Shown here in pieces: positions 1-2,479 of a DNA stretch of 64,000 bases; within the stretch, counting starts at the first letter, position 1; each line of letters opens with the position of its first letter. A program made the translations under genes and the position numbers. Under the pieces are notes generated by a model. That model did no database searches and was not told the origin of the DNA. It saw only the letters and a list, made by a program, of their open reading frames with translations. Source of the DNA: Hyphomonas beringensis. GTDB lineage: Bacteria > Pseudomonadota > Alphaproteobacteria > Caulobacterales > Hyphomonadaceae. Where the stretch lies: positions 1-64,000 of the forward strand of contig NZ_AWFF01000028.1 of NCBI RefSeq assembly GCF_000682755.1, read 5' to 3'.

Positions 1-37
1 GAGGAGCCATGCGCCAGATATGGTGCAGGGGGGGGGA

Positions 38-397
38 TTATGCCAGACGCAATTCCTCAGCCCGCGACAACGCCCGTTTATAAAGGAGTTCGACCAGGTC
101 GTTCTTCTTCATGCCCTTCATATCTGTGGCAGTCGCCAAGTCGTTCTCTTTGAGAGTTGCCTTCAATTCGCCAACCTTTGCGGCGCCCCAAATTCGGCAG
201 AAGGCATCCTTGGACCAGCGCGCTGCCTGTACAGCCGGGTTCGCGCCTTGAAACTGTTCCTGACCCTCATAGAGAACCGTGACCTGCATGGCTTCGATGA
301 GTCTTGCCCTGAATGCCGGGCTCTCTGCCGCTGCGTCGCGAATGGCTGCGAGGAAGCCATTAATTGCCTTCTGGGCGTCGATTTCATTTTCCGTCAT
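38..397 (-). CDS. Small helical protein with a SAP-like C-terminal segment; third gene of a ParA operon
   Basis: 119 aa, function not recognised. The C-terminal third contains the segment LKATLKENDLATATDMKG followed by MKKNDLVELL. This resembles the helix-extended loop-helix of SAP/HeH nucleic acid binding domains (a leucine-rich helix, a short loop, then a Lys-rich helix ending in LVELL). The N-terminal part is predicted helical, with no signal peptide or membrane segment. The start has a good ribosome site (GGAG, 7 bases upstream), and the gene lies 17 bases after the ParA gene, so the two are probably cotranscribed. By analogy with ParA partners it could be the DNA-binding or adaptor component. 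That role is inference; only the operon and the motif resemblance are visible. Confidence 0.6.
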   Translation of the reverse strand: MTENEIDAQKAINGFLAAIRDAAAESPAFRARLIEAMQVTVLYEGQEQFQGANPAVQAARWSKDAFCRIWGAAKVGELKATLKENDLATATDMKGMKKNDLVELLYKRALSRAEELRLA

Positions 398-414
398 GTG
401 TGATCTCCATATCT

Positions 415-1320
415 TCAGTAGACCAAGTTCAGAACTTCATTGCCGAAACTCTCTACTGTCTTTCTGATGCCGCCATATTTGTGGTTGAATGTGGTGTAGG
501 ATTGCTCATCTACGCGCCGGACAAATCGTAGGGCCTGCACCGAAAATGGAATTTCGGTCTCCAGCACGGATGTGCCTGCAAAACGTCTGAGGTCTTCTCT
601 CAGTTTCAGTTTCTCTCGCTTCGCGCCATTGCCGCCTGCAACCATCGTCAGGAAGGCGTACCTGCGGGTGACGCCAAGTGAGAGGGTTTCTTCCAAGCCT
701 TGCTTCCAGAAATTCATCAGGCTCCAGAGCGATACCCTATCAACATTGAGGGGTGACAAGATCAAGTCAGCCTGCAGAAGGGCCGATTGGCTCAAAGTGG
801 AGAAGCCAGGCGGGCAGTCGAAGATGGCGTAATCAAATTGTACCTCGACAGAGGAGAGAGCGTCTTTCAATAGGCCGTTCAGCATATTGCGAGGAGAGGC
901 TCGATCACCTGCTACGAAGTAGAGGTGATCGAAGGCCAACTCTGCGAAGCGAAGATCGGGTGTTGCTGCCCAAAGTGAGATTTGTCCGTTTCTACGGCGC
1001 GGGTTGTTCATTCTAAGGCTTTCCAACCCAGACACATTGGATTGGATCGTTCTGGCTGCATCGATATCAGGACTGGGGTTGTGCCCCAGCATTGTTCCAT
1101 TGCCAAAGCTCTCGATCCAGTTGGTGATCGTGCAGCCCGCTGCTTTCGCACTCTTCAATCCTGGAAAACTCAAGATCATCTGGCTTAGATTAGATTGCGG
1201 ATCACAATCGATGAGCAGAACGCGTTTTTCGTATTGGTGTGATAGTACGTCTGCCAACATCATTGCGGAGGTGGACTTGCCCACCCCGCCTTTCATATTG
1301 GCGATGGCGATTTTCTTCAA
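415..1320 (-). CDS. ParA/Soj-family ATPase without a ParB neighbour
   Basis: 301 aa P-loop ATPase of the ParA/MinD superfamily. The deviant Walker A motif MKGGVGKST is at about residue 9, VLLIDCDPQSNLS (Walker A' region) follows, and DYAIFDCPPGFS (Walker B) is near the middle. ParA proteins dimerise on ATP and bind DNA non-specifically to position cargo. I place the start at a TTG codon that begins KKIAIANMKGG. It has GGGAGG 7 bases upstream and overlaps the TGA of the preceding gene by four bases (TTGA), implying translational coupling. An ATG 48 bases further upstream exists but lies inside the preceding gene. No parB or parS-like repeat is seen. The neighbours (a nuclease-like protein and a SAP-like protein) suggest something other than plain plasmid partition. 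Confidence 0.85.
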   Translation of the reverse strand: MKKIAIANMKGGVGKSTSAMMLADVLSHQYEKRVLLIDCDPQSNLSQMILSFPGLKSAKAAGCTITNWIESFGNGTMLGHNPSPDIDAARTIQSNVSGLESLRMNNPRRRNGQISLWAATPDLRFAELAFDHLYFVAGDRASPRNMLNGLLKDALSSVEVQFDYAIFDCPPGFSTLSQSALLQADLILSPLNVDRVSLWSLMNFWKQGLEETLSLGVTRRYAFLTMVAGGNGAKREKLKLREDLRRFAGTSVLETEIPFSVQALRFVRRVDEQSYTTFNHKYGGIRKTVESFGNEVLNLVY

Positions 1321-1901
1321 ATGATGCCCTCCCGGGGTATGGCTTTCCAGCCCATCTCCTGGAGCCACTTTTCCATATTCATGCGTGCTTCCCGTGGGAA
1401 ACGACGGTCCACAAATTGATCAATGACAAACGGATCAACTTCGGCGCGTTCTGCAGCGACATGTACTATATAGTCGTGCGGATTTGATGGGTCTTCGGCG
1501 GTGACGGCGCCCACACCATGGTATTTGCATAACTCGAAGATGCCGTTGTTTCTCGTGTCCTTCGGTTCGGCCTGCCAAACAAGTGCAGAGTAATTTGCGT
1601 AGCGTTTGTGAGCTATCGCCTCGTATACGGAAGAGTCTGATATGCCGTCCCAGGTCTTGATCTCAAATGTATAGAGAGATGCTGCTAGAGTTGGGACGAA
1701 CCGTGCACGGGAATATAGCATCGCTGCCAAGTCTGGTCTCGACCAGTAGCCGCCATCAATTGCGGGGGCTTGAGATGTATTGGACGTGAAAATCTGAGCC
1801 ATTCCCGGGAAACTGGGAACCAGTTCCGAATGCGAGAACTGCGAGTTGAGCCAGCGCCATACCAATGGGTATAGCGCACTTTCCGGCTTGATAATTTTCA
1901 T
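1317..1901 (-). CDS. PD-(D/E)XK nuclease-like protein, first gene of the ParA operon
   Basis: 194 aa, family not recognised with certainty. Residues about 55-80 contain RPDLAAM followed by YTFEIKTW, spaced like the D...ExK core of PD-(D/E)XK endonucleases. The helix after it, SVYEAIAHKRYANYSALVW, fits the helix that packs on that fold. The N-terminus (LYPLVWRWLNSQF) is helical and could be a winged helix. The last 50 residues look like a separate small helical region. The start has AGGGG 7 bases upstream. The stop overlaps the ParA start. The gene points away from the NTF2-like gene at 2042, so the operon promoter should lie in the 140-base gap. Nuclease activity is inference from the motif; a DNA-binding role without catalysis is possible. 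Confidence 0.6.
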   Translation of the reverse strand: MKIIKPESALYPLVWRWLNSQFSHSELVPSFPGMAQIFTSNTSQAPAIDGGYWSRPDLAAMLYSRARFVPTLAASLYTFEIKTWDGISDSSVYEAIAHKRYANYSALVWQAEPKDTRNNGIFELCKYHGVGAVTAEDPSNPHDYIVHVAAERAEVDPFVIDQFVDRRFPREARMNMEKWLQEMGWKAIPREGII

Positions 1902-2041: not shown

Positions 2042-2479
2042 ATGACCCCCCTCACCGAAGCCCGCATTGCAAACGTCCGCAACCACATGGCCCTTGAGGT
2101 CACGCATGATTGGGATGCGGTGATCGCGACGTTTGAGCATCCGCGCTATGAGATGCATGGCGGCGGGCAGGTGTTTGATGGGGAAGAGGCGGTGCGGCGC
2201 TATTTCGAGCTATCGCGCACGCCGTTCCCGGACCAGGACAATGAGATCATCTCCATCGCGGTCGATGAAGCGGCCGACACGCTGTTGGTCGAGTTCTGGC
2301 TGACTGGCACGCATACTGGCCCCTTGAGGGTAGGGGACAAGATAATCGAGCCGACGGGGCGGAGTTTCCGTGTGCGCATGGCCGCGACATTCGAGTTCGC
2401 GCCGGGCAGCGACCGGATTATCTGCGAACGACCCTATTTTGACCAGGGCGCAGTGCTGCGCGCGCTGGACCTCGCCTGA
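2042..2479 (+). CDS. SnoaL/NTF2-like domain protein
   Basis: 145 aa single-domain protein of the NTF2-like/SnoaL-type cone fold. It has an N-terminal helix (EARIANVRNHMALEVTHDW), then a polyketide-cyclase style stretch with YEMHGGGQVFDGEEAVRRYF, and beta strands to the end. Members include small cyclases, hydrolases and ligand-binding proteins of very varied function, so no substrate can be named. I chose the ATG preceded by AAGGAA rather than the upstream GTG at 1970, which lies in non-coding sequence. It is monocistronic, flanked by the divergent ParA operon and the GGDEF-EAL gene. Confidence 0.75.
   Translation: MTPLTEARIANVRNHMALEVTHDWDAVIATFEHPRYEMHGGGQVFDGEEAVRRYFELSRTPFPDQDNEIISIAVDEAADTLLVEFWLTGTHTGPLRVGDKIIEPTGRSFRVRMAATFEFAPGSDRIICERPYFDQGAVLRALDLA

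Follow-up and report, generated by a model that had tools for sequence, protein, structure and literature searches.

The window analysed here comprises 64,000 nucleotides, the first 64 kb of the 107-kb contig C28 in the 3.8-Mb draft assembly (119 contigs) of Hyphomonas beringensis (genome G000). Its left edge carries three minus-strand genes, and the ORF coordinates confirm the layout given in a preliminary description of this DNA, namely a 4-nt overlap between the first two genes (1317-1320) and a 17-nt gap between the last two (398-414). The operon encodes a PD-(D/E)XK nuclease-like protein of 194 aa (N194, 1317..1901), a ParA/MinD-type ATPase of 301 aa (415..1320), whose TTG start is also kept in the congener G053, and a small all-helical protein of 119 aa (S119, 38..397). 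The window starts at the contig end, and bases 1-10 hold the first codons of uvrB, also on the minus strand (ATG at 10-8), the remainder of this gene lying on contig C50. In C50, 16 bp 5' of uvrB remain before the contig ends, and 26 bp are shared with the opening bases of the window, a match which indicates that the window genome has the same order as G053, where a divergent SnoaL-like gene is followed by N194, ParA, S119, and uvrB; the S119 stop is thus separated by 27 nt from the uvrB ATG. These 27 nt (11..37) are a uvrB leader of reduced length, in which nine consecutive G at the contig edge appear on the coding strand as nine C behind the S119 stop. The SnoaL-like gene (2042..2479, plus strand) is the other border of a variable site, and the trio occupies the gap between it and uvrB. 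A promoter scan of positions 1-2200 returned no sites, and neither Rfam nor tRNA searches of the window gave a match.

The identification of the first protein as a nuclease had been based on its RPDL and FEIK stretches, which are indeed present at residues 55-58 and 79-82 (P56-D57 encoded at 1731-1736 and E80 to K82 at 1656-1664, minus strand). Residues E7, P56, D57, E80, K82, and G131 (numbered as in the window protein) occur without exception in all 12 aligned relatives. E...PD...ExK is the pattern expected of a PD-(D/E)XK enzyme, and on the strength of these invariant residues N194 is likely to be a nuclease of this type. This support comes from the active-site residues; the AlphaFold model, built from four sequences, reached a pLDDT of 46.6 and is too poor for use, and no PDB sequence profile was matched. 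Searches of Pfam at thresholds as permissive as E 10 assigned N194 to no family, and no PADLOC family matched either N194 or S119 at E values up to 1.

Relatives of N194 extend well beyond the trio. Among the ParA-coupled forms of the family, three are longer (254-284 aa), and the distant relatives span 208-340 aa, most of them being longer as well (the match in G574 is split over two short frames). The N-terminus of these longer proteins resembles, by eye, a HARE-HTH domain, and we take the type to be COG2958/HrgA. N194 shares with such winged-helix restriction endonuclease (REase)-like proteins the nuclease core, over which it aligns with the longer relatives, and differs from them in lacking the N-terminal extension and in being coupled to a ParA. 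The window protein may have lost this N-terminal part or may never have possessed it. Matches to N194 were found in 3/385 genomes of the class sample (its own and two in which no ParA is a neighbour) and in 20/398 of the phylum sample. A ParA profile detected no matching frame at any of 18 distant N194 loci outside the family (4.7-12.7 kb each, several of these stretches reaching a contig end near the gene); besides the window there were 20 such places, of which the weak matches in G565 and G728 were left out. Likewise, three distant N194 matches on plasmids show no ParA gene within ~16 kb around them, and no relatives were found in phage records or viral contigs. N194 would thus represent a more widely spread nuclease type that has been joined to a ParA in this family. 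As a side observation, the distant relative in G152 (L054:1820-4296) adjoins two genes that resemble, by eye, Mrr-type restriction enzymes.

The second protein is a ParA with the deviant Walker A motif KGGVGKS, as had been described (Pfam AAA_31, E 6.9e-27; P-loop codons at 1270-1293, minus strand), and it also contains a DCPPG motif. In the PDB, ParA/Soj chains are closest to it in sequence, its only PADLOC match is a P-loop, and the P-loop is intact in all seven nuclease-linked ParAs. Nine plasmid records match the protein, none of them covering 80% of it, and no phage record does. Elsewhere in the window genome, another ParA lies beside a ParB-like gene (by eye); this ordinary-looking pair argues that the ParA of the operon is not the chromosomal partition ATPase. 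The reported absence of parB and of parS-like repeats was also borne out, since no ParB family match was obtained for the proteins of the trio or for the third-gene relatives scanned, and positions 1-2100 contain no inverted repeats and only two two-copy pairs of direct repeats.

S119 is the least readily classified of the three. Its C-terminal SAP/LEM-like stretch (codons 74-103, 89-178, minus strand) gives a SAP match in Pfam at E 0.1 (12.7 bits), and the G053 orthologue one at E 0.01 (15.9 bits), both under the cut-off of 23.9 bits, with no SAP match in the G088 orthologue. The AlphaFold model is all-helical, with a mean pLDDT of 80; residues 71-110 reach block means of 90-95 and the last nine residues 82, with helices at 75-84, 90-93, and 98-118. 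The sub-threshold matches leave the SAP-like label weakly supported. Nor do the sub-threshold SAP match and the net charge of S119, which is 0 and thus not basic, demonstrate the proposed positioning of the module on DNA. The best PDB sequence profile matched S119 at E 0.49 only. S119 occurs in four genomes, the window's own and three others in the genome collection, and in the class sample its only match (1/385) is the window itself; no relatives were found on plasmids or in viral contigs.

A search for co-occurrence of the three genes, as suggested in the preliminary description, found N194 in six of the 105 family genomes, its own included, at seven places. At all seven, N194 is followed by a coupled ParA, the two genes overlapping in G000, G053, G088, G082, and one of the G086 loci (G086b), abutting in G100, and lying within 13 nt of each other at the second G086 locus (G086a), the spacing depending on the start chosen. 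A third frame lies directly behind ParA at each place, overlapping it or at no more than 17 nt, although that of G100 leaves the contig after ~60 codons. A recognisable homology to S119 is seen in only four of these seven third proteins, and homologous trios are present in four genomes (G000, G053, G088, and G086). The third proteins of G086b and G082 are basic (+13), and searching their loci with an S119 profile gave no match. Separately, a protein with TIR and subtilase domains (L019:5775-7505) is encoded ~0.9 kb past the third gene of a nuclease-ParA operon in G086.

The trio of G053 is 94, 94, and 93% identical to that of the window (N194, ParA, and S119, respectively), and the corresponding dN/dS values of 0.096, 0.035, and 0.046 show that it is under strong purifying selection. 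These low values, together with the recurrence of the genes side by side, indicate that the trio is more than a chance arrangement. In the comparison of window positions 38-1901 with G053 (L016), dS is 0.28 for N194 and 0.89 for both ParA and S119. This unequal divergence, with N194 at about one third of the others, suggests recombination inside the cassette and thus a mosaic operon.

The position of the trio was compared with the upstream side of uvrB in 37/42 genomes of the genus (its own, G053, 14 with the SnoaL-like gene nearby, G038, and 20 more; G051, G065, G066, G068, and G071 were left out of the tally). The stretch GAACACCCTAGACA is common to all 16 loci compared and lies within ~45 bases of the start of uvrB; beyond this promoter stretch, on its upstream side, the 16 loci diverge abruptly. 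At the promoter stretch, 14/16 loci have an exact GAACN7GAAC (absent in G062 and G038), a box which we take to be of the alphaproteobacterial LexA type; in the 20 further congeners, it was found within 300 bp of uvrB in only two. The window genome lacks this box, which G053 has at the corresponding place, and its absence could reflect a deletion or an artefact of sequencing or assembly. Inspection by eye revealed no integrase in the gaps at the uvrB site, and this, together with the absence of a tRNA from the window, makes it likely that cassettes are exchanged by recombination in the conserved flanks.

Restriction or defence-type genes are found at this site in 9/37 genomes (six scanned, three by eye). 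G055 encodes an MmeI type IIG enzyme (1144 bits); G039, G043, G052, and G059 carry a methylase-Vsr-EcoRII set (scanned in G039, by eye in the other three); G076 has a methylase and an HNH protein (scanned) with a Vsr-like gene (by eye); G062 has an HNH protein that is not defence-specific; G048 combines GmrSD with Schlafen; and G040 holds an AAA_15 protein of the AriA-OLD-like kind. A DruM2-like methylase accompanied by HNH is among the congener modules. The restriction, GmrSD, Schlafen, HNH, and AAA_15 matches exceed the Pfam cut-offs, and PADLOC matches by themselves are no proof, since 3/10 ordinary neighbours in the window also match its generic domains. The trio itself is present in 2/37 genomes, a ParA of hydrophobic N-terminus together with a small basic protein in 4/37 (G037, G038, G054, and G074), an IrrE-type gene with that of a 393-397-aa protein in 2/37 (one scanned), a TPR protein in 1/37, and GGDEF/EAL genes in 1/37. 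In 16/37 there is no cassette and apparently, by eye, only ordinary chromosomal genes; these cassette-free sites and the one with GGDEF/EAL genes count against a defence reading of the site. G088, which belongs to another genus, also carries the trio immediately 5' of uvrB, in the opposite (divergent) orientation, and in G086 the trio adjoins a dxs-like gene instead (by eye).

According to these data, the trio is predicted to be a hitherto undescribed chromosomal system that defends the cell against incoming phage or plasmid DNA, in which ParA would be the switch and the nuclease the effector, a reading that we hold with slightly more confidence than doubt. It draws on the tight packing of the genes, their purifying selection, the ParA coupling at all seven places, the invariant nuclease residues, and the uvrB-linked slot, which in relatives often holds restriction or anti-virus genes: restriction-modification, GmrSD, OLD/AriA-like, and other modules at the uvrB sites of congeners lend support to the defence role that had been listed among the possibilities. 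The earlier reading is upheld in part: the location speaks for defence and the invariant residues for a nuclease, with no such backing for the positioning on DNA or for the maintenance of a mobile element. ParA ATPases are able to place cargo along DNA. In the proposed mechanism, N194 would act as a PD-(D/E)XK DNase effector with no evident DNA-binding domain of its own, and ATP-bound ParA on DNA would be the switch that holds, restrains, recruits, or licenses it. S119 would be the partner of ParA, in a role like that of ParB without being a ParB by descent, and might sense foreign DNA or trigger ATP hydrolysis, upon which the nuclease would be released or directed. The lack of a ParA gene in the stretches compared around N194 relatives, at 18/18 distant loci, suggests that the nuclease can act without it, which counts against such a switch.

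This last observation favours a different explanation, that N194 is a winged-helix-type REase, restriction-like and possibly modification-dependent, which works on its own; ParA and S119 would then regulate its expression or act as an antitoxin-like brake. Those relatives, mostly longer N-terminally, do without a ParA neighbour, and REase-HARE-HTH fusions beside phosphorothioate systems are reported, in the available part of PMC10853773, to recognise modified DNA. The coupling of ParA to the nuclease at 7/7 places of the family, every time with an intact P-loop, points the other way, and we consider this explanation unlikely. A role in repair, as an accessory of UvrB, appears slightly less credible still; the operon would then be co-expressed with uvrB, and its nuclease would act on damaged DNA where ParA positions it. 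The trio is co-oriented with uvrB, which begins 27 nt (G000) or 62 nt (G053) past the third gene, it adjoins uvrB in a second genus as well, and the GAACN7GAAC box precedes uvrB in 14/16 loci, though in few of the further congeners. However, unrelated restriction or defence-type cassettes occupy the same site in other genomes, the G086 trio lies elsewhere, and the nuclease is unmatched in 40/42 genomes of the genus, uvrB being found in 40/42.

The least probable of the readings, in our judgement, is a partition or maintenance module left behind by a mobile element, with S119 as a diverged ParB-like protein. The ATPase does belong to the same deviant Walker A superfamily as the type I partition ATPases of ParABS systems (Soj, ParA), which are its closest PDB sequences, and a small partner is encoded behind it, as is the case in type Ib partition loci. 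On the other hand, the trio has no ParB match and no parS-like repeats, its third gene is unrelated in sequence, and it sits, with a coupled nuclease, at a chromosomal defence-type site in whose gap no integrase was seen by eye. The maintenance of a mobile element, which had also been proposed, finds no backing in the plasmid records: S119 has no match there, the nine ParA-matching plasmids stay below 80% coverage, and the three that match N194 show no ParA within ~16 kb. Given in addition the lack of phage matches for ParA and N194, the partition module was rejected.

Within the defence reading, what such modules share may be ParA and its small partner, with an effector that can be exchanged, as suggested by two other arrangements of ParA. 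The ParAs found at the uvrB sites of G037, G038, G054, and G074 have an N-terminal segment whose hydropathy over 19 residues is 1.8-2.1, the values for the nuclease-linked ParAs being 0.4-1.4, and searching with their small protein detected such pairs in 12/105 family genomes, of which the four weakest matches lie in 671-689-aa frames and are doubtful. Eight pair loci were read; two of them, those of G091 and G102, have a small gene that points towards ParA instead of lying behind it. No match to these small proteins was obtained in the 385 class genomes, a sample that holds no known positive and so shows little, and the G037 ParA matched no plasmid record at E 1e-20. The second arrangement is a TIR-ParA fusion in the window genome itself (contig C87; L133:4439-5737, minus strand), a protein of 432 aa with Pfam TIR_2 and AAA_31 domains. 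It resembles the trio in that an effector-type domain is joined to a ParA, and differs in being a single gene with no nuclease or small partner beside it (by eye). Both arrangements suggest ParA as a common switch with different effectors. More tentatively, since this is a possibility to which we give rather low weight, ParA and a small helical DNA-binding partner could constitute an immune switch of general use; the alarm would be raised by ParA patterning or dimerising on the DNA of an invader, and the effector would be exchangeable, being a PD-(D/E)XK nuclease in the trio, a membrane anchor or effector in the same-site pairs, and TIR in the fusion. S119 shows no detectable relation to the small proteins of the other pairs (hhalign probability 1.5%), and a single clade uniting both kinds of ParA was not supported by the ParA tree; common descent of these systems is thus not proven by either.

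As the nearest precedent found among known systems, the VMAP ternary conflict systems also include a MinD/ParA-type domain within a predicted conflict system. As presented in the available part of PMC7159879, this domain is predicted to be inactive and to serve as an effector, whereas the ParA of the trio has intact motifs and is encoded by a separate gene between the nuclease and S119. Searches of the literature found no description of a ParA-nuclease defence operon or a uvrB hot spot, as judged by titles and abstract openings, and the term ParA gave no match in the available parts of PMC12839542 and PMC9519451. The new fact is the location of the trio at a uvrB-linked site. If the predicted defence role is true, the pairing of an active ParA with a nuclease at such a hot spot would represent a novel means of distinguishing invading DNA from the chromosome.

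The uvrB site also provides a short list of further candidates, made up of the hydrophobic-N-terminus ParA with its small protein, the IrrE pair with its 393-aa protein, and a 633-aa membrane-type protein. The IrrE-type peptidase pairs are located at L056:636-2352 (G075) and in L137 (G036); the larger IrrE partner of G075 matches nothing in Pfam or PADLOC and shows by eye an N-terminal nucleotide-cyclase-like stretch. The 633-aa protein, which has no PADLOC match, stands alone at the site in 2/37 genomes (L060:8991-10892 and L066:6383-8284). The far side of uvrB is variable as well, with a 487-aa protein in G053 that gives a weak PDC-M36A match (L016:13315-14778), and a RelA/SpoT-domain gene in G038 accompanied by that of a 342-aa partner (L089:403-2051).
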